DNA of 64,000 bases from Agelas oroides (lineage: Eukaryota; Porifera; Demospongiae; Agelasida; Agelasidae), in the NCBI GenBank assembly GCA_949130485.1, contig OX422185.1:16371011-16435010 (forward strand), read 5' to 3'. The notes below the pieces were generated by a model that saw only the letters and a program-made list of their open reading frames with translations, was not told the DNA's origin and made no database searches. Positions 1 through 64,000 of the stretch are shown here, in pieces. Made by a program: the position numbers and the translations under genes. The stretch's first letter is position 1, and each line of letters starts with the position of its first letter.

Positions 1-2064
1 ATGGGTTTTTTTGTGATACTTGTCCTGAGCATAATCAACACATTCTTCATCACAATCGGTGCAGATTTTGAAAATTGCTTGAAAGCATAATCAGTGGAAA
101 AAATAGACAGTAATAACAGGCACATCTCTACATGTAACATCCTACCATGATCAGTATTAAATGGCACACAGGAACCTTCAGATTGGAATTGTATTGCTAC
201 CTATTTGAAGCTGAAGTTTGACGAGAGCATGAGGAGAAAGTTTCTCTGACCTTTCCTACAACAGGAACTAGCCTTAACTCTTGATGTAAAAAGTGAGGCC
301 TATTTCTCTTTATCAAAATGTCAAGAGAGTCTCTGTTGAAATATGAAAATTGATTAGCAGTGACCCCGGATGTTTTCATTAATAAAGGTCAACCTTTGTC
401 TGATTTTGTTGCAGGTAGGTACCTGTAGCCTCGTACCCAGGCTCTCTCCACTAAGGAGGGGGAGAACCTGGTACGTTTTATCACATGGGTGACATCAAGA
501 ATAGACATGGCGTAGATATGACTTAATTGCATGTGGGCATGCACAGAAGTCTGCCCACATAGCTAGGAGCTTGCTGTACAAGTGTAGCTACATGGCACAA
601 AAACCAGTTGCTACAGTAACCACAAATTGCAAGGTAGACCGGTGTAGTAGATGTTCAGTGTCAGAAACAGTATGGGCCGAATGAACAAATTTTATGATTT
701 GTTACGTGTTGTATGCTTGAACATGAGTGTCTAGCTTAGTCCACCCTATGTGACTGAGCTGTGTCTACCCTTGATGTCACACACATGATAAAATATACCA
801 GGCTCTTCCCCTCCTCAGTGGAGCATGAGAATGAGGCTAGCTGGTGGGTACTAATTAGTTTTGTGTTGATCCAATTTAGCAAACTACCAGGAATGAAGCC
901 CCTCAGTTACCAGCCTTGTAACAAGGAAACATGTCCAACACAATCTGAAGATACCAGGAATGGCTTGTTTCATAAACATCCTAGTGTAGCTTTAAAAAGG
1001 CCTGTTGCTGCAGCTGCTACTGTGTACCATGAACCAGTTTGCTTACTTCTTGGCTTTAAGAATCTAAAGATTGGGCAGTAACTTGCTGTTTGTCTTGTAA
1101 AGCGACCACACCATTACCACCTTTACTATGGTCGAAGTTGCTTGAATTGATAGAAGACCAATCTAACTTCGCTTATTGCATGCTCACTCCAATTAATAAT
1201 TTTGTGTACTTTTAGCCACGTTCCCAGGCCTCCTCTGTTGTTTTTTTTTCCTCTTGGTTTGGGTTCAGTATCATACATAGAAGCAAAAGAGTGGTGAAAA
1301 ATTGGGAAAGCCTGGGAGCACATGTGAGGTGGACACGAGGTGGACGTAGGGGGGGCAGTGCCCAACTACAAATATGCATGTGTACTAGTTGTGTGAGTGA
1401 CTTTCTTACCAGTTAAGTGGTGTAGTCTCAGTTTCGAGGGTGTCTGAAGTCCTACCTAGCGGTGGAGCACTCGATGATGAAGTCTGGTGTGTTACTTGAA
1501 TGTAAACCCCTCCCCTCCACCAAAACCAAACCAAAGAGCAAAACACAGGGGAGGCCTGGGAACGAGGCTATGATATAGTCAGGTTGAAGTCAAAGGTCAT
1601 CATTGCTAATGGTAGCCTCATTCCCAGGCCAATTAGAGAAAAGGCCTGGTTTCTGCTGTTCACATAGACATTTAATTTTCAGACATTCACAGGGAATTCA
1701 TGATAGCATCCCCTTGTGTTGTGACATACATAGTGTATACACTTTTGATAATGTGCACAAAACCTGGATTTTGCTGTTTTGTATGCCTTCCAGTGACTCT
1801 GAGGTGAAGCAATGGTGCCTAAACTCAAATAAGAGGGTGTATAAAGTTGTCATGTCTTGGGTGATACATGTAGACACGAGTATACGTGTATATGATGTCA
1901 TCGTTACAATCACATGATGTAGACTGTAATGTGGTGCATGCTTGTATAATTCTACATGAGCTTTATGCACTAATTGTAATTAAGCACATGCATGAACGGT
2001 AGCTACCAGGCCCATTATTTTCCCTGTATTTTCAAGTCAGCCTGGGAATGAGGCTACACTAATT
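1..2064. other. Gene-free stretch with MITE relics
   Basis: No frame here has coding character or a convincing splice pattern. It holds a short CCCAGG/CCTGG hairpin around 430-475, one near full-length MITE (listed separately) and scattered copies of the motif CCTGGGAAYGAGGCTA near 2040-2055, which recurs across the whole window. The remaining sequence is AT-rich and unremarkable. Confidence 0.6.
1213..1570. mobile_element. MITE of the TAGCC..CCCAGG / CCTGGG..GGCTA family
   Basis: The left end reads TAGCCACGTTCCCAGGCCTCC and the right end reads GGAGGCCTGGGAACGAGGCTA, an inverted pair. The interior carries the same landmarks as the copies at 7508 and 62699: a CAGTAT(A/C)ATACAT segment, a GTGGACACGAGGTGGACGTAGG segment and a run of G. 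There is no coding capacity, so it is non-autonomous. The superfamily cannot be named; the flanking bases would fit a TA target, which is weak evidence. Confidence 0.75.
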
Positions 2065-9277: not shown

Positions 9278-11036
9278 AAATTTCAGGACATACTACTTCC
9301 AGCAACAATCTTGACATGTACACTTCATCCATTCATGGTTTCTTTCTTACCTGTGTGTGCTTGTTAAAACAACTGTTTTGGAATCAATGCATGCACTTTC
9401 ATATCTCAGCTCGGATACCCTAACTGTAGGGCACTTTAGTGTACTGTACAGTAAGTCTCTTTTCCTGTAATGAGCTACCATCTCCATACAGTACCATAGA
9501 CTCCTTTCTGAGCACTCAGTTCCCATGCATGGTAATGCGTATACGTCATATTGGAGGTCGAGTGCTAAGTATGGAGGTCAGTACTGGTCTGTTAGCATGC
9601 TGATGTGGGTGACATTGTTACAGCAATTTTTTGGAAAATCCAGACAGAGAGCAGCTAGTCTAGTACTGCAACATGATATTGTTTTGCTGTATCAGAAGTG
9701 TAATAAACATACTTTGCTAGTCATAACCAGAGTATCCCTGCCATTCCCAAACTAAAGGAATGGGGTTTGGTATGGTGACATTATATTTTACCTACTTAGC
9801 TTCACACTCTACAGAACTTAGCCATGTGCATACTTCTACTAAAGCAATATACATAAACATGTCACAAGATCTCCTAAATACAAGCTAGATTTTTTACTGT
9901 TGTGTGAGGATGCCAAAATATCAAGTATGAGACTGTCATGCAATGCTGTTGTACACCCACTGGCACCTCAAGCCAGGGTCCTGGTCAAGACAACTGCCAG
10001 CTCTTGATTTCCCCTATACTTTGCCTCTTCCAACTTATGAAAGCCAAGATCAGAATATAAAGTCCCTGCATGGTGGCCTGCTGTTGGGTGAGGCTACAAG
10101 ACCCCCTTCCTGGGTATGAGACTTGTGTGATATCACAAGACCTTCCTTCTGCATGTGTACCATTTGTTAGTTTATGAGGATTTCACCAAGACCTTCATCG
10201 GTAAGTATGACTGCTGTTGGGGGAGGATCCGATGAGACCCCTTTCCCAGTATGGATACACAACTGCTGTTGTGTGAGGATGATGAATGCACCAAGTCACT
10301 CTTTGCTATTGTGTGATCTCCTCCACCATGAGTATGACGCATTTCGCTATTCAGCCTACTGTGACAACACTCTCCTTCAATTCTGGGTGCATATGAGACT
10401 ATTTTGCTATTGTTGGGGGGTGGAACAATCTACTTATGACTGTTCTGTATTGCTATATATTAGCTACCAGCTTTACTTGCACTACAACTATTAGTATAAC
10501 TGATTTTTATATATCATGCAAGTTTTTTCATGACTCTTGTGGTACCTTGTCAATCAGTTGACAAGTTTCAAACAGTGACCATCATTCTTATGATGCAAGT
10601 CCTAGCTGTCTTGCCATGGTTCGTACCAAAATTTCTTCAAATATGAGACTCTGACTCCTGACAACTGTCAACTGGTACCGGCATGCACCTATATAATTCT
10701 ATAGGGTGTCTTAATAACCATAGTTAGCCTTGTTCCCAGGCTGGTGGCGAGAATCTGGAAACTAGGCTAAATCATAGTATCATGCATGATAATATTATTG
10801 TATATTGTGGGTAGTTATTATTAAAAACAGCTAGTATTATAATTATTCATACACAAAACTGTAATGGGAATTCAGCATGTGGGCAAAAACATAATTACAC
10901 GTAGATTGCTGTATATACTAACATCCAAGGCTATAATGTGCATACACAAAATGCATACATAAACAGTGCTAACACCTCAGTGAGTTAAAAATTGAAGTGA
11001 AAATTGCTTAAAAATTGATGTTTGTGTGGATGGAGG
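9278..11036. other. No gene seen; degenerate short-period repetition
   Basis: Between about 9890 and 10450 a loosely repeated phrase (CTGCTGTTGTGTGAGGAT, then GAGAC) recurs at irregular spacing and gives open but meaningless frames. The rest is AT-rich. The 3' end of the minus-strand gene lies just beyond 11036; no clear AATAAA-type signal was found on the minus strand within the next few hundred bases. Confidence 0.45.
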
Positions 11037-15129: not shown

Positions 15130-16958
15130 CATAGTAAATTGACACCCACACAATGAATGGTGATCCAAACGAAGAAGTTCTTTTAATTTCTGTTTGTGAG
15201 GTATACAATGTCAAGATGGAAGACAACAGAACCTCAACACAAAGAGTATATTTATGACCATATCTCCTTTTGCTAAGGTACCTCTTCAATGAATGCGCAA
15301 GATCTAGACATCTTTCTTCTGTGCACACTCGGAAATTTTTGTGGAGGCACCTTCAAATTGGAACTGTTTATCACACTTGTGTGTGATACAAGCAAAGAGA
15401 AGCAATCACAGTCTACTTTAACCTTGGTGTGCTGTGCAAACCTATGCCTCAGCTCATTTGCAGTGCAGACTTCAATGTCAATGCACCAGAAAGAAGTGTT
15501 AAAAGCTCAAGCACAAGCTGTAGGTGTCAGTACCATTCTAAGAAGGTGCCTCTCTAGATATAGCACTTAAGTGATTGTCTAAAGTGATTTTCTCAGCAAA
15601 CAAGGTACCATCACAGGACGTAATTATTTATAATAACATCTTAACTAGATCAAATACAGTGAACACAAACAACATCAAGTTACTGGAGACAATTGAAGAC
15701 CACTAAATGATCAACACACTTGTTAACTACCTAAACACACACCCACTAACTTCGTTCATGAACACTATCAAGTATTCTCAATGGAGTACAGCTTCCTGGA
15801 TATTCACACTTGTGCCAGGAACATACTTGTACATATACACTACAGGGTTTCATTCAACAGTTTTCCTGGTAAGTGAAAACATTAGTATAAGGTTGTGTGA
15901 CTTGACTGTGTGATTCTGTAACATGTACCATATATAATAGTTGAGATGGAGCAGCATGAGCACGAAGGGCAAATGCTGTTTCATCTGGGGAAACAACTTA
16001 TTTGTTGGATGTTACCCTTAGCAACTCATTGTAAATCGGATGTAGAGGTCACACGAGTACTCACATCTTATGTGCAAAACTAACAGTTGGTCAGAGCATG
16101 TTCTTATTCCCCCCTTCCCTTGCTCCCCCCTAACCTCCTCTCTGCCCTCATCATCCACCACCCTGTTTTCTAACCCAAGGTATCTAGCAAGTGACAGCAA
16201 AGTTGCTATACACCAAATCAATGACCTGTACGAGTGGATAACAATTGCTACAGTACTCATGCAAGTTTGAGTGGGTGGGAGAGTGGGTACTGAAACTGTC
16301 ACAGGAAATTGCTACAACTTTCACTGGGACTAGCTGGGGACAGTTTTGTGGCTACTACAGATAGCCCAATGTGAGTATCAACAGTAGATATTCATAGCTT
16401 GTAGTGGTTTGGCTAAATAAAAGAAAGCCCACTGATGACCACAGTGTGTTGGCTGTTATTCCCCATCCCTCCCCTCCCTCCTTCCTCCCCCACCCTCCTC
16501 TCCCTCCCTCCTTCCCACAGGGTTAGTCATACCTACATTAAAGCAGGTACGCCTTCTTCCCACCCTTCTGTCCCAAGGCAACCAGCAAAATATTTACATG
16601 AGCTGGTAATTAGAAATGAGTTGCTATGTACAAATCCCTGACCTTAGGGAAAGTTAGGTAGGTGGATGTCAACATTAATTTAGTCACATCAAAGAACTTG
16701 AGCCCCCTTTCCTCCCACTTGGGGATAGCACTGACTGAAACTGAGGTTTCTAGAAGGATGCCTCCCTTAACTGGTTTCATAGCAACCATTCCAGTATGTT
16801 GCCTGTATGTGCATGGTTGTAGCAGTGATGTACGAAATGAGAAGAACGTGTGAGATGCTTCTACCAACCATATGGATATGGATGGCCACCTAACTGCCTT
16901 TCTTGCATGAAGTAGCAACTCAAATATCTCGTGTCAGCTAATAGCACAGCCAAGAACT
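15130..16958. other. No supported gene
   Basis: Open frames on both strands at 15119-15570 have no splice or start context. A C/T-rich tract with CCCTCCCTCCTTCC units lies at about 16455-16520 and a related CCCCCCTTCCCTTGCTCCCC run at about 16105-16130. Nothing here could be tied to a gene. Confidence 0.45.
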
Positions 16959-16959
16959 A

Positions 16960-17025
16960 CTCTTGTTCCCAGGCTCTCCCTTCGCCCTTTCATTGGGGCG
17001 ACGGGAGAGCCTGGGAACGAGGCTA
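16960..17025. mobile_element. Hairpin MITE, CCCAGG/CCTGGG family
   Basis: TTCCCAGGCTCTCCC and GGGAGAGCCTGGGAA form nearly perfect arms around a loop of about 22 bp that is itself partly self-complementary (TCGCC / GGCGA). The element ends in CGAGGCTA. It is the shortest form of the family and has no coding content. Confidence 0.75.
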
Positions 17026-26339: not shown

Positions 26340-26427
26340 TAGCCTTATTCCCAGGCCTTCCCACTGTCCAGTTTTTGATCGCTTGTGATCAAAAACTGGA
26401 CGGTGGGAAGGCCTGGGAATGAGGCTA
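26340..26427. mobile_element. 88-bp hairpin MITE, nearly perfect palindrome
   Basis: The left arm (TAGCCTTATTCCCAGGCC... CCAGTTTTTGATC) pairs with the right arm (GATCAAAAACTGG... GGCCTGGGAATGAGGCTA) almost without mismatch, around a very short loop. It belongs to the same family as those at 28970, 40190 and 57308, which share the GATCAAAAACTGG inner segment. It is non-coding. Confidence 0.85.
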
Positions 26428-28969: not shown

Positions 28970-29117
28970 TAGCCTCATTCCCAGGCCTTCCCTGCCTCCA
29001 GAGGTATTTGATCACTTGAGTTTACTGAGGGAGATATGGCAGGGAAGGCCTGGGATCAAAAACTGGAGGTGGCATGGGATCAAAAACTGGAGGTGGGGAA
29101 GGCCTGGGAACAAGGCT
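28970..29117. mobile_element. MITE, CCCAGG/CCTGGG family with internal duplication
   Basis: It begins TAGCCTCATTCCCAGGCCTT and ends GGCCTGGGAACAAGGCT. The inner arm GGGATCAAAAACTGGAGGTGG is duplicated (about 29052-29096), so one arm is longer than the other. A second, degenerate copy follows at about 29196-29277. Confidence 0.75.
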
Positions 29118-30267
29118 GGTCAATGCAAACTTCCACCTCATGGGACTCCATCTGTCTGCCTGACGTTACATGACATCACTGCAGATGACAAGATCGGCCT
29201 TCCCTGCCTCCAGGTTTTGATTGCCTTGTAGTATGGGATCAAAAACTGGAGGTGGGGAAGACCTGGGTATGAGGCTTGTATTGACCAGTCCCAATGAAAT
29301 GTACTGATGCTGCCTTGCAAACATTGCGGTCTTCGACATAGTCTTGCAAGCTGGATCCACTTCCACAAAAAGTGAACTGTTTATACAAGCCATGTCCCGC
29401 ACACTGCTCAGTGAGGTCCAATCACATTGTAGTACTTTGTCACGTGATACATTACATCACTGTTTGAGTAGCAATGACAGCCTGGAAAACAGTGTTCATG
29501 CTACTGCAGGAACTGCAAAAAACACTTCTAGGGAAGCATGCACATTTCACAGCAGGTACAGTGTATTTCAAGAGTGCATTACTTGAAATCTGGTTAGGTC
29601 ATCCAGCTAATTGCACTCTAGTGGAATACGGCTCAGTTCACCAGACCTTTTCCTTTTTGCAGAAGTGGCTGAGTCTAGCTTGTGAGACTAGGACAGAGAT
29701 TACAAGCAAGAGCCTCAAGATTATTGGTTGGGTCTTCCATGCGTGTGTCTTCCTTCTTTCTACCTGATGCTACATGACATTACCACACTTGATGAGCTCT
29801 CCCAGGTCTCATCCCACCACACTTGCATATCATTAGGCAATCAAATACTGGAGGTCTGGAAATGAGGATGCATTCAGAGGGTACATGGGTCAAAAATTAA
29901 ATTTTGTACAAACTGTCAAGCTCTCATTTGCTGTGAGATCAAGCTGTCAAGCAGCCAATTATCAAACTTTTTGAACCCTGATCTCAGCTGTGACTAGCTA
30001 GGCCTACAGTAACTGTAGCTGGGAGAACCCACATGACACAAAAATACTGTAGTGGTTGACCAAGCATGCCAAGCTCTTCTTTGTCAATCACTACGCTAGT
30101 TCAATCATAATTTGTGGCAAACTTATTGCTCACCTTACTTGATGGCTGTATGTAAGCTGGATGAAAGCCTCATCTGCTATTCATAGGTTCGTGGGCAAGG
30201 TACTATCATTGACTATGAGTATGAAACATGATTCATCTAATATTTCTTTTCATGTTCGCTCAAATAG
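29118..30267. other. No supported gene; degenerate MITE copy
   Basis: After the second MITE copy (to about 29277) the overlapping frames at 29138-29767 have no splice support. A further ATCAAATACTGGAGG fragment lies near 29838. Nothing else was recognised. Confidence 0.45.
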
Positions 30268-32640: not shown

Positions 32641-32659
32641 GTTAGTCCCCTCCATCCTT

Positions 32660-43514: not shown

Positions 43515-43862
43515 CTAACAGTCTTTGATACTGTGGTTTGTGTGTACTTTGCGTGTGCTTGGAAGTCTTTGATTCGATGTTTGCATGTTTGAACCAATTA
43601 TCTGGGTATTCGTTTGCTAGGACATCCACATACGTATCTGGATTGCCAAAACCAACATTCGTTGCAGCCCTAATGATCGTCACATACGTAGGTCATAGCT
43701 CTCGTGACTTGTCACTTGTGATAGTCTTGGGTTACATTCCCATGTAGTTAGGGTTCACACAATTCTCAACAAAAAAATTTCTGTGAAAGATCATCTGTTT
43801 TCAAGTTTTCTCTTGTGAAGGAACAGTACAGTACATTACACTCTGTGGTTTGTGTAAGTGTA

Positions 43863-46617
43863 TTCCCAGTCTCATTCCCAGACTCTAAGTATGGTGCTGG
43901 GTCTCACTGAGGGTCTGGGTGAGTGTATTCCATTAGTCTCGTTCACAGACTCTCAGTATGGTACTGTGTATCACTGAGGGTCTGGGTGAGTGTGTTCCAT
44001 TAGTCTCGTTCACAGACTCTCAGTATGGTACTGTGTCTCACTGAGGGTATGGGTGAGTGTATTCCATTAGTCTCGTTCACAGACTCTCAGTATGGTACTG
44101 GGTCTCACTGAGGGTCTGGGTGAGTGTATGCCATTAGTCTCGTTCACAGGCTCTCAGTATGGTACTGGGTCTCACTGAGGGTCTGGAAGAGTCTATTCCA
44201 TTAGTCTCGTTCACAGACTCTCAGTATGGTACTGGGTCTCACTGAGGGTCTGGGTGAGTGTATTCCATTAGTCTCGTTCACAGACTCTCAGTATGGTACT
44301 GGGTCTCACTGAGGATGTGGGTGAGTGTATTACATTAGTCTCGTTCACAGACTCTCAGTATGGTACTGGGTCTCGCTGAGGGTCTGGGTGAGTGTGTTCC
44401 ATTAGTCTCGTTCACAGACTCTCAGTATGGTACTGGGTCTCACTGAGGATGTGGGTGAGTGTATTACATTAGTCTCGTTCACAGACTCTCAGTATGGTAC
44501 TGGGTGTCGCTGAGGGTCTGGGTGATTGTATTCCAATAGTCTCGTTCACAGGCTCTCAGTATGGTACTGGGTCTCACTGAGGGTCTGGGTGATTGTATTC
44601 CAATAGTCTCGTTCACAGACTCTCAGTATGGTACTGGGTCTCACTGAGGGTCTGGGTGAGTGTATTCCATTAGTCTCGTTCACAGACTCTCAGTATGGTA
44701 CTGTGTCTCACTGAGGGTCTCACTGAGTGTATTACAATAGTCTCGTTCACAGACTCTCAGTATGGTACTGGGTCTCACTGAGGGTCTGGGTGAGTGTATT
44801 CCATTAGTCTCGTTCACAGACTCTCAGTATGGTACTGGGTCTCACTGAGGGTCTGGGTGAGTGTATTCCATTAGTCTCGTTCACAGACTCTCAGTATGGT
44901 ACTGGGTCTCACTGAGGGTCTGGGTGAGTGTATTCGATTAGTCTCGTTCACAGACTCTCAGTATGGTACCGTGTCTCACTGAGGGTATGGGTGAGTGTAT
45001 GCCATTAGTCTCGTTCACAGACTCTCAGTATGGTACTGTGTCTCGCTGAGGGTCTGGGTGAGTGTATTCCATTAGTCTCGTTCACAGACTCTCAGTATGG
45101 TACTGTGTCTCACTGAGGGTCTGGGTGAGTGTATTCCATTAGTCTCGTTCACAGGCTCTCAGTATGGTACTGTGTCTCACTGAGGGTATGGGTGAGTGTA
45201 TTCCATTAGTCTCGTTCACAGGCTCTCAGTATGGTACTGTGTCTCACTGAGGGTCTGGGTGATTGTATTCCAATAGTCTCGTTCACAGACTCTCAGTATG
45301 GTACTGGGTCTCACTGAGGGTCTGGGTGAGTGTATTCCATTAGTCTCGTTCACAGACTCTCAGTATGGTACTGTGTCTCACTGAGGGTCTCACTGAGTGT
45401 ATTACAATAGTCTCGTTCACAGACTCTCAGTATGGTACTGGGTCTCACTGAGGGTCTGGGTGAGTGTATTCCATTAGTCTCGTTCACAGACTCTCAGTAT
45501 GGTACTGGGTCTCACTGAGGGTCTGGGTGAGTGTATTCCATTAGTCTCGTTCACAGACTCTCAGTATGGTACTGGGTCTCACTGAGGGTCTGGGTGAGTG
45601 TATTCGATTAGTCTCGTTCACAGACTCTCAGTATGGTACCGTGTCTCACTGAGGGTATGGGTGAGTGTATGCCATTAGTCTCGTTCACAGACTCTCAGTA
45701 TGGTACTGTGTCTCGCTGAGGGTCTGGGTGAGTGTATTCCATTAGTCTCGTTCACAGACTCTCAGTATGGTACTGTGTCTCACTGAGGGTCTGGGTGAGT
45801 GTATTCCATTAGTCTCGTTCACAGGCTCTCAGTATGGTACTGTGTCTCACTGAGGGTATGGGTGAGTGTATTACATTAGTCTCGTTCACTGACTCTCAGT
45901 ATGGTACTATGTCTCACTGAGGGTCTGGGTGAGTGTATTCGATTAGTCTCGTTCCCTGACTCTCAGTATGGTACCGGGTCTCACTGAGGGTCTGGGTGAG
46001 TGTATTCCATTAGTCTCGTTCCCAGACTCTCAGTATTGTACTGGGTCTCACTGAGGGTCTGGGTGAGTGTATTCCATTAGTCTCGTTTACAGACTCTCAG
46101 TATGGTACCGGGTCTCACTGAGGGTCTGGGTGAGTGTATTCCATTAGTCTCGTTCCCAGACTCTTAGTATGGTACCGGGTCTCACTGACGGTCTGGGTGA
46201 GTGTATTCCATTAGTCTCGTTCACAGACTCTCAGTATGGTACCGGGTCTCACTGAGGGTCTGGGTGAGTGTATTCCATTAGTCTCGTTCACAGACTCAGT
46301 ATGGTACTGGGTCTCACTGAGGGTCTGGGTGAGTGTATTCCATTAGTCTCGTTCACAGACTCTCAGTATGGTTCCGGGTCTCACTGAGGGTCTGGGTGAG
46401 TGTATTCCATTAGTCTCGTTCACAGACTCTCAGTATGGTACCGGGTCTCACTGAGGGTCTGGGTGAGTGTATTCCATTAGTCTCGTTCACAGACTCTCAG
46501 TATGGTACTGTGTCTCACTGAGGGTCTGAGTGAGTGTATTACATTAGTCTCGTTCCCAGACTCTCAGTATGGTACTGGGTCTCACTGAGGGTCTGGGTTA
46601 GTGTATTCCATTAGTCT
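43863..46617. repeat. 67-bp satellite, about 41 copies, with a 670-bp higher-order repeat
   Basis: The unit contains ATTAGTCTCGTTCACAGACT, then CTCAGTATGGTACTGGGTCT, then CACTGAGGGTCTGGGTGAGT. Each monomer is a potential hairpin (CAGACTCTCAG / CTGAGGGTCTG). Marker variants (CTCACTGAGTGTATTACAATAG at about 44711 and 45381; GATTGTATTCCAATAG at about 44591 and 45261; a TATTCGATTAG unit at 44931 and 45601) recur at exactly 670 bp, ten units, showing a block duplication that matches until about 45870. No ORF persists. Confidence 0.97.
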
Positions 46618-47789
46618 CAATCTTGACCTTACCTTAGATAGCGCTACTAAGCAAGCAAGCGAGTTCAGCTTGAACATTCAGCTTGACATCCCCTGCCTAT
46701 TAGTGGCCACTAGGGTCTGCTTTGTGTACGAGGTTTTCTGCATTCCCTAGTATAGTATATTTTGTGGCTCTGATAACACTGACGTAGTTCATTTGTCAGA
46801 TGTCGGAGTGAATAGATTGGCTAGCAGGGACCATTGTCTGCAAATCTAATGACTACATTTGAACTGAAAGGACCGTATTTTACACTTGTGACTGCATTCA
46901 AAGTACTGTATTGCTGAACTTCACGTATTGTTAAATAGACTGTGACCAAGCCCTCCATCTCACTGTCACAAAACCAAATGGAAGGCAGAGACCTTGATTT
47001 GAGGCGGTGTTAAAAGTGCTGGGGCGAACTTGTTCCTGATGCGGTTGAACAAGGAGAGGGAGCACTTGGTTTGTGTGTACATTGTTTGCATGCACTTGAT
47101 CACCATGAAATTCAGTGGCTTTCGTGCACGTACATATACATACGTATACTGATGGTGTCACAAAATCGCTGCGTAGTATGTTCCAGATGGCATTCTATTT
47201 GGTCAAGTCTGATCTTGCACTGTCCTGTGCCTTCTGGCAGTTAGGTACCTCAACATGAAGCTCAAGAAAGAACAAGTTGCCTTACTGAGTAGGAGAAGAT
47301 GTCTTTGTGTGGTTATCCACCGATCTTGAAAGTTAATTTGCTACCAGACACTTGTGTTGTATCAGAGGTAGGCTTGCAGTTAGCGGTGATGTTTTTGCTG
47401 TAGTCTGGAAATACACCAATGGGATAGCCTTGTTCCCAGGCCCCGCCCAGCTTTCCGTTGCTTGCTACGTTCGTACCATACACCAATGGGTTAAGAACTT
47501 AATTGGCTCCTCAAAGAGGGGGGTGTGCACATTTTCGAGAGTTATGACATTTCTCTCTCTCGAAAATGCGCCCACCTCACACGCAGTTAGTCTAGCCCTA
47601 TTAAGGTTAGGGCTCATATGTGCCTAGGGGTATGCTGGGGGGGGTGCGTATTTTCGAGAGTTGTGATCTTTCTCTCTAAAATATGCCTCATGCGGTTAGT
47701 CTGGCCCTAGTTATGTACGCCTGCAGAGATTCTTCAGTGCCTCTTTTATCATGCACTTGCTTATCCAATAACAGCAAATGGTGCCTGCC
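46618..47789. other. No gene; dispersed repeat copies
   Basis: 46900-46925 is a fragment of the AAGTTCAGCGATACAG family. 46930-47400 is a copy of the repeat at 37906. 47515-47700 carries ATTTTCGAGAGTT..GAAAATGCGCCCACC sequence, repeated once within this interval and related to about 37370-37410. Confidence 0.6.
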
Positions 47790-48180
47790 TTCATTTGTTT
47801 GTCCCTCCCCTTGCACAGTGCTGCCAGACACTCCTGTTGTATCCCACAAAGGCTTGCAGTTAACAGTGATGTTTGTCCCTCCTCTTGCACAGTGCTGCCA
47901 GACACTCCTGTTGTATCCCACATAGGCTTGCAGTTAGTAGTGCTGCCAGGCACTCCTGTTGTATCCCACATAGGCTTGCAGTTAGCAGTGCTGCCAGACA
48001 CTCCTGTTGTATCCCACATAGGCTTGCAGTTAGCAGTGATGTTTGTCCCTCCTCTTGCACAGTGCTGCCAGACACTTCTGTTGTATCCCACAAAGGCTTG
48101 CAGTTAGCAGTGATGTTTGTCCCTCCTCTTGCACAGTGCTGCCAGACACTTCTGTTGTATCCCACATAGGCTTGCAGTTC
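47790..48180. repeat. 74-bp tandem repeat with 48-bp short units
   Basis: The full unit contains TTTGTCCCTCCTCTTGCACA, GTGCTGCCAGACACTCCTGT and CCCACATAGGCTTGCAGTTA. Four or so full units are interrupted in the middle by two shortened units that lack the TTTGTCCCTCC part. Frames on both strands are open through the array but shift phase and have no independent support. Confidence 0.9.
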
Positions 48181-48202
48181 TTTGGTCACATAATGTACAG
48201 TC

Positions 48203-48350
48203 TCATTCCCAGGCTCCTCACCAGTGGACTACAGGAAGTTGCATGCCCTCTCGCCGCCTTCGGCGGCTCGATGCACCCTTGATAACGTTCAACCTCGTTC
48301 CCAGGCTCCTCACCATGATGTACATCATGGGAATGTACATTATGACCTAG
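48203..48350. repeat. Decayed CCCAGG-family palindromes
   Basis: ATTCCCAGGCTCCTCACCA occurs twice (about 48204 and 48299), with the hairpin GCCGCCTTCGGCGGC between them and a CCATGATGTACATCATGG palindrome after the second. These are fragments of inverted-repeat elements. Confidence 0.5.
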
Positions 48351-48541
48351 GCTAGAGGATGCTTTTAAACAAGCTACATATGTCATCAGAGATTGTTGCA
48401 AGCAATTAATAATGATAGATCCTGGACTGTGAATATGGATAGAAAGCTTGTTTGCATCCCTATTTTCATTGGCTCATTTTTATCCCTTAGTCTACCCTCA
48501 TGTTCTGTTCCTGACCTCATTGATATGTGCTTGTTTTCCCT

Positions 48542-48640
48542 CTCTGAGCTTGTACTGTGCCCTCTCTGAGCTTGTACTGTGCCCTCTCTGGGCTTGTGTG
48601 CCCTCTCTGAGCTTGTACTGTGCCTTCTCTGAGCTTGTAC
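48542..48640. repeat. 22-bp repeat, about 5 copies
   Basis: The unit CTCTGAGCTTGTACTGTGCC(C/T)T repeats with one shortened copy and abuts the 43-bp array. The last unit ends TTGTACTGTTCACTAG, running directly into the first 43-bp unit, so the two arrays share a junction without spacer. Confidence 0.85.
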
Positions 48641-49812
48641 TGTTCACTAGCTACATGTAGATTGGTCGGCACTGGTGTTTGACTGTTCACTAGCTGCATG
48701 TAGATGGGTCGGCACTGGTGTTTGACTGTTCACTAGCTACATGTAGATTGGTCGGCACTGGTGTTTGACTGTTCACTAGCTACATGTAGATTGGTCGGCA
48801 CTGGTGTTTCACTGTTCACTAGCTACATGTAGATTGGTCGGCACTGGTGTTTCACTATTCACTAGCTACATGTAGATTGGTCGGCACTGATGTTTCACTG
48901 TTCACTAGCTACATGTAGATTGGTCGGCACTGGTGTTTCACTGTTCACTAGCTACATGTAGATGGGTCGGCACTGGTGTTTCACTGTTCACTAGCTACAT
49001 GTAGATTGGTCGGCACTGGTGTTTCACTGTTCACTAGCTGCATGTAGATTGGTCGGCACTGGTGTTTCACTGTTCACTAGCTGCATGTAGATTGGTCGGC
49101 ACTGGTGTTTCACTGTTCACTAGCTGCATGTAGATTGGTCGGCACTGGTGTTTCACTGTTCACTAGCTGCATGTAGATTGGTCGGCACTGGTGTTTCACT
49201 GTTCACTAGCTACATGTAGATGGGTCAGCACTGGTGTTTCACTGTTCACTAGCTACATGTAGATTGGTCGGCACTGGTGTTTCACTGTTCACTAGCTACA
49301 TGTAGATTGGTCGGCACTGGTGTTTCACTGTTCACTAGCTGCATGTAGATTGGTCGGCACTGGTGTTTCACTGTTCACTAGCTGCATGTAGATTGGTCGG
49401 CACTGGTGTTTCACTGTTCACTAGCTACATGTAGATGGGTCGGCACTGGTGTTTCACTGTTCACTAGCTACATGTAGATGGGTCGGCACTGGTGTTTCAC
49501 TGTTCACTAGCTACATGTAGATTGGTCGGCACTGGTGTTTCACTGTTCACTAGCTGCATGTAGATTGGTCGGCACTGGTGTTTCACTGTTCACTAGCTGC
49601 ATGTAGATTGGTCGGCACTGGTGTTTCACTGTTCACTAGCTGCATGTAGATTGGTCGGCACTGGTGTTTCACTGTTCACTAGCTACATGTAGATTGGTCG
49701 GCACTGGTGTTTCACTGTTCACTAGCTGCATGTAGATTGGTCGGCACTGGTGTTTCACTGTTCACTAGCTACATGTAGATTGGTCGGCACTGGTGTTTCA
49801 ATGTTCACTAGC
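48641..49812. repeat. 43-bp satellite, about 27 copies
   Basis: The unit contains TTCACTAGCTACATGTAGAT and TGGTCGGCACTGGTGTTTCA. The 10-bp core CTACATGTAG is self-complementary; a frequent variant (CTGCATGTAG) breaks it. Variant units cluster in runs, as expected for unequal exchange. No ORF persists. Confidence 0.97.
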
Positions 49813-49905
49813 TACAATCTACATGTAGCTAGTGAACAGTAAAACATGAGTGCCGACCAATCTACATGTAGCTAGTGAACATTGAAACACCAGTGCCGAC
49901 CCATA
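49813..49905. repeat. Two inverted copies of the 43-bp unit at the array's end
   Basis: Immediately after the direct array the sequence switches strand: ATCTACATGTAGCTAGTGAA occurs twice, followed by CACCAGTGCCGACC. The last direct unit is truncated after CTAGCTACA. The array therefore ends in a head-to-head junction, possibly from a fold-back replication error. Confidence 0.9.
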
Positions 49906-50401
49906 GGTCACAGTAACACCACTGCTAGAAACATCACTAACAACTGCTCTGCACAGTTGAACACTGGTTGTTTTAAGGTTAAGCTATAATAAGTGTACCT
50001 TTTCCAAGGTTTTCACATACCCTCGTTTCGTTCAACTGGCACTTGAGACAGTTGCCTTGTGACGCTCACAGTGGTGGTTGTGTATGAATTGTGGAAACTA
50101 GGTGCTCCCTCTCCTTACCACATGTAACACTTGTTGTCATGGCTACCATCGGCAAAGGTAGGTTTAGAAGGGTGACCTATTATTCCAAAAGAAATTCCTG
50201 AATATACTGCACCCATCCCTAGTCCTGGGTAGCAGGCTAAAGCCCATGGTAGCCATGGCAACCAGTCTTATCTGGATTGGGCTACAGTGGGTGGTTTATA
50301 CAATGCTTGTACAACACGTACAAATATGGTCATATGTCACTCTGTGGTCAATCAATCACAGCTTTCCTTCTTGGTTGCAATTGTGAATATGTGTAAGAAC
50401 C

Positions 50402-51365
50402 CAAGTCTTGAACCCAGACCCCCCTTCAACCCTGGGTACGACGAGACTGGTTTCAGTAGTCTCGAACCTAGACCCCCCCTTCAACCCTGGGTACGAGACC
50501 ATGGTTTCAGTAGTCTCGAACCCAGATCCCCCTTCAACCCTGGGTACGAGACTGTGGTTTCAGTAGTCTCAAACCCAGACCCCCCCTTCAACTCTGGGTA
50601 CGAGACTGTGGTTTCAGTAGTCTTGAACCCAGACCCTCCTTCAACCCTGGGTTCGAGACCATGGTTTCAGTAGTCTCGAACCCAGACCCTCCTTCAACCC
50701 TGGGTACGAGACTGTGGTTTCAGTAGTCTCAAACCCAGACCCCCCCTTCAACTCTGGGTACGAGACTGTGGTTTCAGTAGTCTTGAACCCAGACCCCCCC
50801 TTCAACCCTGGGTTCGAGACCATTGTTTCAGTAGTCTCGAACCCAGACCCTCCTTCAACCCTGGGTACGAGACTGTGGTTTCAGTAGTCTCAAACTCAGA
50901 CCCCCCCTTCAACTCTGGGTACGAGACTGTGGTTTCAGTAGTCTTGAACCCAGACCCTCCTTCAACCCTGGGTACGAGACTGTGGTTTCAGTAGTCTCGA
51001 GCCCAGACCCCCCTTCAACCCTGGGTACGAGACTGTGGTTTCAGTAGTCTCCAACACAGACCCCCCCCCTTCAACCCTGGGTACGAGACCATGGTTTCAG
51101 TAGTCTCGAACCCAGACCCTCCTTCAACCCTGGGTACGAGACTGTGGTTTCAGTAGTCTCGAGCCCAGACCCCCCTTCAACCCTGGGTACGAGACCGTGG
51201 TTTCAGTAGTCTTGAACCCAGACCCTCCTTCAACCCTGGGTACGAGACTGTGGTTTCAGTAGTCTTGAACCCAGACCTTCCTTCAACCCTGGGTACGAGA
51301 CTGTGGTTTCAGTAGTCTCGAACCTAGACCCTCCTTCAACCCTGGGTATGAGACTGTGGTTTCAG
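50402..51365. repeat. 54-bp satellite, about 17 copies, hairpin monomers
   Basis: The unit contains AGTCTCGAACCCAGACC, a C run, TTCAACCCTGGGTACGAGAC and TGTGGTTTCAGT. GTCTCGAACCCAG and CTGGGTACGAGAC are inverted within each unit, so each monomer is a small hairpin ending in the same CCCAG/CTGGG signature as the MITEs. Variation in C-run length (5-9) makes unit length vary. Open frames on both strands are readings through the repeat. Confidence 0.95.
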
Positions 51366-55722: not shown

Positions 55723-56034
55723 ATGCGTAACGTCCACAAGAAACGGGCGCGGGATAAGCAGAACTATCTGCGAAACAAAGAAAGCAAAAGGCAAGCGTCC
55801 CGTAACAAGTACTGGAAGAACCCGGAAAAACAAAGGGCATCTTCCCGGGCGTACTCTCTTACTAGTTATTGGAAGAACCCTGAAAAGAAAAGGGCATCTT
55901 CCCATACCCGTTATTGGGAGGACCCCGAGACCAAGAGGGCGTCCTCCCATACCCGTTATTGGGAGGACCCCGAGACCAAGAGGGCGTCCTCCCATACCCG
56001 TTATTGGGAGGACCCCGAGACCACAGTGCCTTAG
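55723..56034 (+). CDS. Small basic protein with Asn-Pro-Glu repeats; probable truncated transposon-associated ORF
   Basis: The 103-residue frame reads MRNVHKKRARDKQNYLRNKE and then repeats units of 15-18 residues of the form RASSHTRYWEDPETK, with earlier, more diverged units NKYWKNPEKQRA and SYWKNPEKKRA. From recall, such (Y-x-x-N-P-E-K-x-R-A) basic repeats form the N-terminal part of longer proteins in sponges and other invertebrates, often near transposon-type helicase genes. Here the frame stops right after the third near-identical 45-bp unit, so the usual longer C-terminal part is missing. A second frame (55697-56071) is open only because 45 is a multiple of three. Function is unknown; nucleic-acid binding is plausible from charge alone. 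Any signal peptide or membrane segment is absent. Confidence 0.5.
   Translation: MRNVHKKRARDKQNYLRNKESKRQASRNKYWKNPEKQRASSRAYSLTSYWKNPEKKRASSHTRYWEDPETKRASSHTRYWEDPETKRASSHTRYWEDPETTVP
55883..56028 (+). repeat. 45-bp tandem repeat inside the ORF, about 3 copies
   Basis: Units containing AGGGCGTCCTCCCATACCCG and TTATTGGGAGGACCCCGAGA are almost identical; more diverged units precede them (from about 55800). The near-identity of the last units indicates recent expansion. Confidence 0.9.
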
Positions 56035-56222: not shown

Positions 56223-56900
56223 AAGTCACAAAAAAGTTTGCCAAACGCAAACAAGCACATGTAGGGATGAAATCCTCAAAAACCAACCAAACAAGACGGG
56301 AACGACACCACAATACTTTTACACCATCCCTACATCTTGTGCCATTTTGCCACCTGTACACAACACAAAACCCTCTACATTTGTAATTATTAGCCCACAC
56401 CAACCACAAACAAACATAGTACTTCACTCCATTCAACTATCTCACAAAATAACCCATCCTTCACAAAGCATTACAAAATTACCACTACTCACTTCACAGC
56501 CACCTGTATACAAGACAACCCATATCTATCATGCTAAACAGGCATAAAACTTAACAACATAATGCACATTCCAACATACCACACACACTCACCACTCCTC
56601 ACTCACTCCACACCTTCTACACACAACTTGGACCATACCTGCTACACTCAGTAGCAACCACCAACAACACAACATACTCACTATGCACAACACACCCACG
56701 CCACACCCTTCCATCTACAAGACAACCCTCTTCTACACACAACTAAAAAACAAATACAAACACACAGTTTTGGCAAAATGGCACAAGATGTAGGGATGGT
56801 GTAAAAGTATTGTGGTGTCGTTCCCGTCTTGTTTGGTTGGTTTTTGAGGATTTCATCCCTACATGTGCTTGTTTGCGTTTGGCAAACTTTTTTGTGACTT
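56223..56900. mobile_element. Perfect 130-bp inverted repeat around a 418-bp A/C-rich loop
   Basis: The left arm at 56223-56352 and the right arm at 56771-56900 are exact reverse complements by eye along their whole length (outer end AAGTCACAAAAAAGTTTGCC). Imperfect pairing may extend outward (ACCACACC near 56175 with GGTATAAAA..CCACAGG near 56905-56920). The loop is very poor in G on the plus strand and rich in CAC, ACA and CTC words. Open frames here are artefacts of that bias. It is either a recent foldback/TIR element or a recent inverted duplication. Confidence 0.85.
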
Positions 56901-59529: not shown

Positions 59530-60531
59530 TCGCTAGTGTGGGGCTAGCCTTGTACCCAGGTGCGGAGGAAGGGGAGGAGACAGAGCGCCTGGTATACACT
59601 GTTTGCGCATGTGCTTAATCGCCATGGAATTCTGTGGCAACCGTGTTTGCACGTGTACGTATGTCATAAACTTGCCGTGTTGATGTGTCAGTTGGCATTC
59701 TGGTCGAGTGAGTTTTATATTGTGCTATTCTATGCCTTGTGGTAGCTGGGTACCTTGAGATAAAGCCCAAGAAAGAGCAGGTTTTTATTGCCTCCATTGA
59801 GTGCATTTACCAAGGAAACATACCTTTTTGCGGTTATCAACCAATTTCGGTAAGTCGATTCCTACCACTGCCTACCAGAGATTTCTCTTTGTATCCGACA
59901 GTATAAAACTAGGCAGAGCATGTAGCAGCAATGTTTATAGCGTCCTAAGAACAAAAGCTGAGGTAATTTTATGACGGTTTATGCCATTTGTGTGTACCGT
60001 TGGTTGTGATATTAGTACACACCCCTAATTCTGCCACCTGGCCTTTGGCCATAATTAGGCACATGTGCGAACAGTGTAAACCAGGAGCTCTTTCTCCTCC
60101 CCTCCTCCACGCCTGGGAACGAGGCTAGTGTGGGGCTTGTTCAGGCTGGTCCCAATAACTGCTAGCGAGTAGTTACTCCTGTTTCCTACTACAGGTTAAT
60201 TGATCTAGTGAGTAGCATGATGAGAATTCACAAACCTAATTACTGTTACTGTCCTCAAAGCTTCATTCAAAGAGCTTGGGCAGACACTTCTCTCTGGCTA
60301 ATGTTACCAGATGTTATGGTGTATGCATCATTTGCTAGTGATTATCTAGCTAGCTGATGGTAGTAATTGGCAAGTTGTGATAACGTACAAGTGCCTGAAC
60401 TGCTCGATGAAATTGTGAGGGGGATGATACTAAGCCTAGAATTGTCTTTGTGTTCACATGCAACTAATGCTCATTGGGTTAAACCCTGAATGGATGGACC
60501 TATCTGACTTAGACCATACCCTCATGGCAAC
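59530..60531. other. No gene; repeat fragments
   Basis: 59600-59960 is a diverged copy of the right part of the repeat at 37906. 60105-60155 has CCTGGGAACGAGGCTAGTGTGGGGCTTGTTCAGGCTGGTCCCA, combining the ends of two MITE families. The rest, up to the recombinase relic, shows nothing. Confidence 0.55.
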
Positions 60532-62698: not shown

Positions 62699-63137
62699 TA
62701 GCCTCGTTCCCAGGCCTCCTTCGTTTTTGTTCTTCAGTTTGCGTTCAGTATAATACATGGAAGCAGTGAATGGCAAGAAATGGGTAGGTTCATTCATCAC
62801 GTGAGTGGACACGAGGTGGATGTAGGGGGGGAAGGGCCGATATTCAAATATGTATGAACTAAGCTCGAAAGTGAGTTTCTTATGGGTCAAGTCGGGTAGT
62901 TTTGACCACACAAGCTCTGAAGTCCAGAACTGCGGTGGAGAGCTCAAACGGGTGGTCCAGCACATTGTTTTTGTGGTTGGCCCCTCCCCTCCTACGTCCA
63001 CCTCATGTCTGACTGATGTTATTCACATGGTGAATGACCCCAGGCTCTCCCCATTTTTTGTTGTTCTTCCACTTCCATGTACTATACTATATGCAAACCA
63101 AAGAACAAAAACCGAGGGAGGCCTGGGAACGGGGCTA
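62699..63137. mobile_element. Full-length MITE, 439 bp, parent of the terminal array
   Basis: The left end is TAGCCTCGTTCCCAGGCCTCC and the right end GGAGGCCTGGGAACGGGGCTA. The interior has GTGGACACGAGGTGGATGTAGG mirrored by CCTACGTCCACCTCATGTC, so it folds back along most of its length. It aligns with the copies at 1213 and 7508. Its right-hand ~120 bp is the same as the monomer of the array that follows. Confidence 0.8.
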
Positions 63138-64000
63138 AATTCAGTATAGCTTGGTGCTATGTTATTCACATGGTGAATGACCCCAGGCTCTCCCCGTTTT
63201 TTGTTGTTCTTCCACTTCCATGTACTATACTGTATGCAAACCAAAGAACAAAAACCGAGGGAGGCCTGGGAACGGGGCTAATTCCAGTATAGCTTGGTGC
63301 TATGTTATTCACATGGTGAATGACCCCAGGCTTTCCCCATTTTTTGTTGTTCTTCCACTTCCATGTACTATACTGTATGCAAACCAAAGAACAAAAACCG
63401 AGGGAGGCCTGGGAACGGGGCTAATTCAGTATAGCTTGGTGCTATGTTATTCACATGGTGAATGACCCCAGGCTTTCCCCGTTTTTTGTTGTTCTTCCAC
63501 TTCCATGTACTATACTGTATGCAAACCAAAGAACAAAAACCGAGGGAGGCCTGGGAACGGGGCTAATTCCAGTATAGCTTGGTGCTATGTTATTCACATG
63601 GTGAATGACCCCAGGCTTTCCCCATTTTTTGTTGTTCTTCCACTTCCATGTACTATACTGTATGCAAACCAAAGAACAAAAACCAAGGGAGGCCTGGGAA
63701 CGGGGCTAATTCCAGTATAGCTTGGTGCTATGTTATTCACATGGTGAATGACCCCAGGCTCTCCCCATTTTTTGTTGTTCTTCCACTTCCATGTACTATA
63801 CTGTATGCAAACCAAAGAACAAAAACCAAGGGAGGCCTGGGAACGGGGCTAATTCAGTATAGCTTGGTGCTATGTTATTCACATGGTGAATGACCCCCGG
63901 CTTTCCCCATTTTTTGTTGTTCTTCCACTTCCATGTACTATACTGTATGCAAACCAAAGAACAAAAACCAAGGGAGGCCTGGGAACGGGACTAATTCCAG
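63019..64000. repeat. 142/143-bp satellite, about 7 copies, continuing past the window
   Basis: Units start at GTTATTCACATGGTGAATGA (63019, 63161, 63304, 63446, 63589, 63732 and 63874). Lengths alternate between 142 and 143 bp through ATTCAGT versus ATTCCAGT. Each unit contains the 3' end of the MITE (CCCCAGGCTCTCCCC ... GGAGGCCTGGGAACGGGGCTA) plus about 24 bp of flank. The pattern of variants (CCGAGGG then CCAAGGG; GCTCTCC versus GCTTTCC) shows that several units were copied together. The frames on both strands with 71-81 codons are readings of this repeat. The array is cut by the window end. Confidence 0.97.

Follow-up and report, generated by a model that had tools for sequence, protein, structure and literature searches.

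Separate tandem arrays seeded by one family of tiny hairpin elements in Agelas oroides

SATELLITES AND ELEMENTS OF THE WINDOW

The window, i.e., the whole stretch of 64,000 bp of Agelas oroides DNA analysed here (contig OX422185.1, positions 16,371,011 to 16,435,010), contains tandem arrays and dispersed elements (Table 1). The terminal repeat, or tip, of the dispersed family of tiny transposons is TAG[C/T]CTCG[T/A][T/A]CCCAG[G/A]C. For the motif TCGTTCCCAGG at up to 2 mismatches, the window has 104 occurrences versus 10.1 ± 3.5 in shuffles; 64 of them lie inside the 67-, 53-, and 143-bp arrays and 40 outside. In 145,395 bp of the region outside repeats, 84 tips at up to 3 mismatches were counted.

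Both arrays described in the initial annotation, with units of 67 and 54 bp, are present, the second having a unit of 53 bp, not 54 bp. The sequence shared by their monomers extends beyond the short motif: the 16-mer tip AGCCTCGTTCCCAGGC is found with 3 mismatches in either of them (p = 0.005, the lowest value attainable with 200 circular shuffles). Two further arrays had been assigned to the same group. The 143-bp array at 63.0 kb also carries the tip, with 1 mismatch to AGCCTCGTTCCCAGGC. The 103-bp array at 57.5 kb was rejected: it lacks the tip, with 7 mismatches (p = 0.86), and folds no better than its shuffles (z 0.01).

Table 1. Tip-bearing satellites and dispersed elements of the window (positions in the window).
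Feature	Position	Strand	Remarks
Dispersed 358-bp element	1213..1570		Both tips, no clear TSD
Dispersed 444-bp element	1613..2056		TSD 6/9
Dispersed 45-bp element	10725..10769		TSD 8/9
Dispersed 68-bp hairpin element (L009)	16958..17025		TSD 7/9
Dispersed 88-bp hairpin element	26340..26427		TSD 7/9
Dispersed element, right part internally repeated	28970..29118		No TSD found
67-bp satellite, 41.3 copies	43857..46618	+	Unit has the left tip TAGTCTCGTTCMCAGAC, the body of the element, the right arm CTGAGGGTCTGGG with the final ~10 bp of its tip missing, and ~16 bp of flank
47-bp tip-bearing repeat, two separated single units	48179..48315	+	Forms arrays at four paralogous loci (7-18 copies)
53-bp satellite, 18 copies	50404..51365	+	Unit: 44-bp hairpin element TAGTCTCGAACCCAG..CTGGGTACGAGACT(A/G) plus 9-bp TSD-like spacer TGGTTTCAG
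Dispersed 583-bp element	59545..60127		Perfect 9-bp TSD GTGTGGGGC at 59536-59544 and 60128-60136
439-bp element, both tips	62699..63137		Its right end serves as first unit of the 143-bp array; TSD not clear (4/9)
143-bp satellite, 7 copies (on to 64017)	63016..64000	-	Unit: final 122 bp of the 439-bp element, with 21 bp of its right flank

The 53-bp array is present also at paralogous C3 loci, and the 67-bp satellite, among the matches listed, in C3 arrays only. Copy number varies across paralogous places, from 13 to 38 for the 53-bp unit and being 2 (at P15563) and 7 for the 143-bp unit. The 143-bp array probably grew from the 439-bp element. Families with units of 47 and 61 bp have single-mismatch tips. 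The 67-, 143-, 61-, and 47-bp units all contain pieces of the family and do not consist of a clean element plus 9 bp.

THE ELEMENT FAMILY AND ITS TARGET SITES

The family is classed as MITE-like: its members are non-autonomous DNA transposons, very short and almost palindromic. Forms with two tips measure 42-88 bp, have terminal inverted repeats at both ends and occur in many dispersed copies. Loci were scored for the C14 element (the best 40 of 122 candidates), for a 78-bp form (40 of 709), and for a further candidate list (40 of 78). For the first two, matches are mostly bounded by the element ends, which in the C14 element lie at query positions 12-68; 2 of its 40 loci are tandem. Related solo hairpins are found on many contigs, in other flanks and with their own target-site duplications (TSDs), as at L059, L062-L066, and L068. 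No Rfam family matched at gathering scores.

TSDs were examined at 48 sites. These remained of 94 rows once 10 duplicates at paralogous loci and 36 units from within the 53-bp arrays had been set aside, and they include elements that belong to other arrays (L061, L060, and 62699-63137). At 29 of these sites, TSDs of 8-10 bp with at most one mismatch were found, being 9 bp long at 23 sites (15 perfect), 8 bp at four (three perfect), and 10 bp at two, and at the other 19 of the 48 no TSD was seen. None of 2000 mismatched pairings of left and right flanks reached a TSD of this length and quality. When the flanks were used to group sites automatically, 47 were obtained, and the counts of 9-, 8-, and 10-bp TSDs stayed at 23, 4, and 2. 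A TSD of TA, first guessed from the flanks, was replaced by 9 bp after this comparison.

Transposons of the Mutator-like (MULE) superfamily have TSDs of 9 bp (8-11), a range that overlaps those of other superfamilies such as Merlin. The TSDs of the present family fall within it. The MULE transposase domain PF10551 has 119 matches in the genome; in L069, the single MULE-coding locus read among them, the family tip is absent at up to 4 mismatches.

ELEMENT PLUS TSD AS THE TANDEM UNIT

At three separate loci the tandem unit is the element plus one 9-bp TSD-like spacer, with a length of 53 bp on C3, 66 bp on C14, and 65 bp on C19. These loci support the conclusion that one hairpin family has seeded separate tandem arrays. 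In the 53-bp arrays the junction is CGAGACTA-TGGTTTCAG-TAGTCTCG, and the spacer TGGTTTCAG was found in 100 of 111 parsed spacers. The 9 bases at the left edge of the C3 arrays (AGAACCCAG) match it at only 4/9 positions, so the original left TSD was lost or never present. In the C14 array (L061), with spacer GAGGTTCTG, the left tip of the first unit is broken and the TSD is visible at the right edge only. The C19 array (L070) alone among the three has its TSD, GTTGACATG, at both outer edges as well as between units, and beyond these two copies the DNA on both sides is non-repeated.

Of the tail-to-head spacings in the DNA examined, seven were 9 bp, all in C3 arrays, and three, within the single array L067, were 3 bp; spacings of 4, 13, and 24 bp were each seen a single time. 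Truncated or partial tandem forms of the family are found on C4, C8, and C19. The spacer of the C4 array (L060) is suggestive of an inverted TSD copy (GGACATTCC versus GGAATGTCC); L071 has a similar tail duplication without the inverted copy. The family of tiny elements is present here as solo copies, as a two-copy locus, and in both short and long arrays.

Junctions of TSD length and sequence, as found on C3, C14, and C19, are exactly what is predicted by double insertion, in which a second element enters the TSD of the first and the resulting dimer is expanded by unequal exchange. Tandem P-element junctions as long as the TSD are reported in one review, and another presents the model (PMC12628747, PMC9659126). 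Double insertion is expected to bring together unlike copies in either orientation, but full C19 units are 0.93-0.98 alike and reach at most 0.88 with nine solo copies, and 113 of 115 parsed 53-bp units on C3 have their asymmetric core in one orientation. Such like, co-oriented units favour duplication over re-insertion. Insertion of one and the same local copy, or homogenisation once the first dimer existed, would conceal the differences expected between separate insertions; double insertion is nevertheless considered unlikely.

Rolling-circle amplification, which had been proposed in the initial annotation, would produce the identical unit: an extrachromosomal circle made of the element with one TSD would be replicated repeatedly and then return to the genome. 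Long arrays do exist (up to 99 copies of the 61-bp repeat). The C19 array argues against it, since its position between two copies of its own TSD in non-repeated DNA fits duplication in place. This origin is regarded as very improbable.

TIPS AND FOLDING AMONG SATELLITE FAMILIES

Tips at up to 3 mismatches occur in 5 of 44 satellite families, the remaining 39 having at least 4 mismatches. Five families exceed the 1.14 expected by chance (P = 0.004), but with the three named in the initial annotation left out, 2 of the remaining 41 carry tips where the null gives 1.03 on average (P = 0.28), and the enrichment is significant only when these three are counted. The latter figure would suit a coincidence, i.e., a region so dense in elements and tandem repeats that random duplications often take in a tip, as would the 143-, 67-, 61-, and 47-bp units, which are not phased to the element. 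Chance leaves unexplained the enrichment over all 44 families, the units of element plus 9 bp at three loci, and the TSDs at the edges of the C19 array, and it has a low probability as the overall explanation.

Folding was compared between circular DNA folds and dinucleotide shuffles in the 35 families with units of at least 30 bp. The test has power, as four solo elements gave z of -5.9 to -13.4. Consensus units of 53, 45, and 143 bp from the window fold better than shuffles. The claim that both monomers fold back holds in part. For the 53-bp unit, the window consensus folds well (z -3.75, p = 0.006), as do 10 of 17 single monomers at p ≤ 0.05, but in the 35-family test, where paralog P14037 supplied the representative, p was 0.144 for energy and 0.03 for stem length. 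The 67-bp unit is not significant by energy (z -0.86, p = 0.18) but is so by stem length (p = 0.03), and 3 of 11 sampled single monomers fold at p ≤ 0.05.

Satellites as a class did not separate clearly from the shuffled controls: p ≤ 0.05 was reached in 4 of the 35 families by energy (1.75 expected by chance) and in 3 by stem length. Hairpin folding as a property common to satellites was therefore discarded, because the tip-bearing 47- and 61-bp units fold no better than shuffles and the best-folding repeat of the window, of 45 bp (55847-56023), looks like a protein-coding repeat by its reading frames. That repeat, rejected as a hairpin element, can be read in one frame as a 15-residue repeat ASSHTRYWEDPETKR, the other two frames being open too, and is identical at 40 listed places. 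The idea that hairpin-forming monomers are favoured generally, whatever their origin, could draw on the 53-, 45-, and 143-bp consensus units, but with so few folding families, a 45-bp repeat that looks coding, and a 67-bp unit that fails by energy, it has hardly any probability. Evidence against hairpin strength alone as the driver comes from the 78-bp hairpin, a high-copy form: it folds most strongly among the four solo elements tested, and none of its 40 scored loci (the best 40 of 709 candidates) is tandem. The proposal that hairpin elements repeatedly seed arrays accordingly survives for the family itself, which seeded the C3, C14, and C19 arrays and left pieces in four other satellites of the region, and fails for folding as the shared feature.

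PROPOSED ORIGIN OF THE ARRAYS

The arrays probably arose by tandem duplication in place between the TSD copies that flank a hairpin, followed by unequal exchange, which is the most likely mechanism. A single insertion reads TSD-hairpin-TSD, two direct repeats of 9 bp enclosing a strong hairpin. Replication or repair may pause at the hairpin, and the new strand may slip from one TSD copy back to the other, so that the element and one TSD would be copied a second time. From two copies on, unequal exchange and further slippage could produce a satellite. Without the TSD pair, a like event could use other short homologies and yield a truncated element with a few flanking bases; the 143- and 67-bp units and a 59-bp unit on C19 may have formed by this route, and probably also those with 61 and 47 bp. 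The arrays would then have been spread by segmental duplication within C3, with copy numbers drifting. Several observations weigh against this account: the poorly matching left edge of the C3 arrays, the C14 array with its TSD visible at one edge only, the 19 sites lacking a TSD, the 67-, 143-, 61-, and 47-bp units that depart from element plus 9 bp, the spacings other than 9 bp, the tip enrichment that depends on three families, and the lack of tandem loci among those scored for the 78-bp hairpin.

The birth of a satellite is usually invisible, as old arrays have lost their seed. Under duplication in place, the unit boundary (element plus 9-bp TSD) identifies the homology on which duplication probably relied, and the first duplication step becomes testable. 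A broader and more doubtful possibility is that TSD-hairpin-TSD is a ready-made duplication module, its slippage mirroring precise excision, and that satellites are born from it repeatedly. If so, the satellite repertoire of the genome would be largely set by the places where elements land.

COMPARISON WITH KNOWN SYSTEMS

Both tandem MITEs and junctions the size of a TSD have been published, so the case described here follows a known route in a clean variant. CMITEs of Acropora corals are reported as full-size MITEs in tandem, and replication slippage was favoured by the authors over independent transposition (Wang et al., 2010; PMC2872659). As described there, these arrays resemble the present ones in having full-size elements, similar units, and similar inter-unit sequences, whereas CMITEs are about 100 bp long with TTAA TSDs of the piggyBac type (PMC2872659). 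In the present family most TSDs have 9 bp, elements in tandem measure 44-57 bp, and the spacer is as long as the TSD.

Double insertion of transposable elements as a satellite seed was modelled by McGurk and Barbash (2018), as cited in PMC12628747 and PMC9659126. According to these accounts, the TSD-length junction and expansion by unequal exchange are common to both cases, but the model concerns Drosophila elements such as P element and hobo, and the elements here are tiny hairpins in like, co-oriented units. MITE-related satellite arrays, as here, are also described for miDNA4 of Xenopus tropicalis, for which microhomology was proposed, and for Xstir of Xenopus (PMC12628747, PMC9659126). Those arrays are reported to be internal to the MITE or derived from its inner sequence, whereas the 53-bp unit is the whole element plus TSD. 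Similarly, Tetris / TIR-220 of Drosophila virilis is described as a foldback-type element that has ends in common with a MITE and yields satellite arrays; its unit is a ~220-bp repeat inside the terminal inverted repeat (PMC4079207), in contrast to the whole element plus TSD that is repeated here.

Tandem arrays of the region

The window is C3, 16,371,011–16,435,010, in an assembly of 141 contigs totalling 259 Mb. Probing with 201 bp taken at window 50.0 kb yielded five more near-full-length copies (199–201 bases, 95–100% identical) at 14.0–16.0 Mb of C3, and the C3 region is therefore segmentally duplicated. Arrays were compared over 27 kb round each of five paralogous copies (L039–L053). One such 27-kb stretch (L045–L047, C3:16003594–16030593) is 53% tandem repeat, and a 61-bp array within it runs to about 99 copies. 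At the paralogous locus P14066, the 43-bp array is arranged as in the window, with inverted end copies, and the 67-bp array is absent from the corresponding place; the P14066-window match begins at the right edge of the window's 67-bp array (46616), a rearrangement junction. Both arrays named in the initial annotation, of 67 and 54 bp, are present, but the period of the shorter is 53 bp.

Features of the window, with positions within it
Feature	Position	Copies	Remarks
C/T-rich 58- and 53-bp arrays	32647–34140		several frames open; 600-aa ORF listed; probably not a gene
67-bp array	43857–46618	41.3	Tandem Repeats Finder
43-bp array	48639–49904	27	last two copies inverted; near-palindromic turn at about 49815
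53-bp array	50404–51365	18	Tandem Repeats Finder
45-bp repeat	55847–56023		readable as 15-residue repeat ASSHTRYWEDPETKR
Perfect 130-bp inverted repeat	56223–56352, 56771–56900		418 bp between arms
583-bp element	59545–60127		perfect target-site duplication GTGTGGGGC
ORF (-)	60532–61149		DUF3504 and phage-integrase domains, tyrosine-recombinase-like; public contig matches at 98%

Tip sequence and folding

The terminal repeat (tip) motif of the MITE-like elements has 104 matches in the window versus 10.1 by chance, 40 of them outside the three main tip arrays. Tandem repeats (period at least 20, score at least 80) in the window, its 10-kb continuation and the five paralogous regions form 44 families, of which five match the 16-mer AGCCTCGTTCCCAGGC with no more than three mismatches. 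The 47-, 61- and 143-bp families have one mismatch and the 53- and 67-bp families three each, which bears out the likeness to MITE ends proposed for the latter two. The next nearest is a T-rich 51-bp repeat (four mismatches), and the remaining families have at least six; thus, of the two further arrays proposed as members, that at 63.0 kb (143 bp) belongs, but that at 57.5 kb (103 bp) does not. Equal-length random non-repeat segments of the same sequences give 1.14 expected (P=0.0043 for at least five), an after-the-fact figure that includes the three families (67, 53 and 143 bp) first noticed; without these, 2 of 41 carry the tip (null mean 1.03, P=0.28).

Folding was tested with DNA energies on circular monomers versus dinucleotide shuffles. 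The window 53-bp unit folds strongly (z -3.75), as had been claimed, but the 67-bp unit does not exceed its shuffles in energy (z -0.86, p 0.18). The 143-bp unit folds moderately (z -2.2), the 103-bp unit averagely (z 0.01) and the 45-bp unit strongly (z -3.9). Across the 35 families with units of 30 bp or more, p≤0.05 is reached by four in energy (those of 45 and 143 bp, one of 60 bp and one of 53 bp without the tip) and by three in stem length (45, 53 and 67 bp), so no clear hairpin excess over shuffled controls emerged. The tip-bearing 53-bp family in this test was a variant from the paralogous place P14037, with an energy p of only 0.144, and the tip-bearing 47- and 61-bp units showed no fold beyond shuffles. 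Hairpins are therefore not a shared property of the satellites; what the tip-bearing ones share is descent from one transposon family. Four solo elements gave z -5.9 to -13.4 by the same method. The 45-bp repeat, identical at 40 places genome-wide among the 40 scored of 345 candidates, may be a dispersed repeat from the coding sequence of a mobile element.

The element family

A genome search with the 53-bp unit returned the C3 arrays and partial matches on other contigs, chiefly over the hairpin; ten of these places were read (L059–L068). They include solo elements, such as that in L062, TGTGACAAC-TAGTCTCG...CGAGACTA-TGTGACAAC, whose terminal repeat starts TAG[CT]CTCG and whose target-site duplication (TSD) is 9 bp. 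Over 48 distinct sites, drawn from loci chosen for likeness to these elements or to the window region, TSDs with at most one mismatch measure 9 bp in 23, 8 bp in 4 and 10 bp in 2, and are missing at 19; the count leaves out 46 of 94 scanned rows (36 units of 53-bp arrays, 10 paralogous duplicates). Shuffled pairings of left and right flanks gave 8–10-bp TSDs at this stringency in 0 of 2000. The TSD length presumably points to a Mutator-like origin. The MULE transposase family has 119 matches in the genome, and the one MULE transposase locus read lacks the ends of the present elements. The C14 element occupies 40 loci in the scored list, mostly bounded by element ends, two being tandem (C14, C19); the 78-bp form is tandem at 0 of 40 scored loci.

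Units of element and TSD

Three paralogous 53-bp arrays have the junction CGAGACTA-TGGTTTCAG-TAGTCTCG, the unit being a 44-bp element plus 9 bp. In six 53-bp arrays, TGGTTTCAG occupies 100 of 111 parsed spacers, and the asymmetric core lies the same way round in 113 of 115 parsed units. At the left edge of the C3 53-bp arrays the TSD is not kept (match 4/9 only), which weakens this case. Two independent loci have the same element plus 9-bp design. L061 (C14) has two 57-bp elements, each followed by the 9-mer GAGGTTCTG, the left tip of the first being broken. L070 (C19) reads GTTGACATG-element-GTTGACATG-...-GTTGACATG, so that the 9-mer separates the units and also bounds the array on either side, beyond which the DNA is non-repeated; one unit is a 19-bp remnant, and the tips are TGGTCT, not TAGTCT. 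Rolling circles predict reinsertion elsewhere, but the C19 array edges point the other way. The four full L070 units resemble one another at 0.93–0.98, and any of nine solo copies at no more than 0.88. Double insertion would produce the same element-TSD-element junction, but it predicts unlike units and mixed orientations.

Other arrays are less clean. L060 (C4, 46 bp x 5.5) and L071 (C8) have a full element, then extra right halves, each array within one 9-bp TSD pair (8/9 and 9/9, respectively). In L060:334-627 the right TSD, GGAATGTCC, has a reverse complement similar to the spacer, GGACATTCC (or GGACATTTC). L075 (C19, 59 bp x 11.5) joins a left-truncated element to 13 bp of right flank, and its unit folds within chance (z -0.71). 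L067 (C8) is built of a 39-bp form spaced by 3 bp, and the remaining tail-to-head neighbours in the DNA read are spaced by 4, 13 and 24 bp. The 143-bp unit comprises the final 122 bp of a 439-bp element and 21 bp of flank, and the 3-base homology ATG lies at its ends; the window has seven copies and one paralogous locus has two. The 67-bp unit, confined to C3 arrays among the matches listed, has the left tip and a right tip without its final bases, together with about 16 bp of flank. The 61-bp unit has the right tip inside, its left edge at the paralogous place P15563 opening with the bases next after that tip, and the 47-bp unit has one tip inside. All four units are compatible with duplication at other short homologies; the 67- and 61-bp units also fit decayed units of element and TSD.

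Origin of the arrays and known systems

With unit composition, TSDs, solo relatives, co-orientation and copy-number variation observed, TSD-mediated duplication of hairpin elements, then growth into satellites, is the best explanation and a fairly probable one, tempered slightly by the other tail-to-head spacings and the P14037 folding result. The first duplication may have occurred by slippage or template switching between two TSD copies, aided by the hairpin, and unequal exchange would then have enlarged the arrays. Among the papers that literature searches listed, none was recognised by its title or start of abstract as describing a satellite unit of element plus TSD, and absence from print is not claimed. 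For corals, one paper describes tandem arrays of full-size MITEs and proposes slippage (PMC2872659); TSD-length junctions in tandem transposable elements and the double-insertion model appear in two reviews (PMC12628747, PMC9659126).
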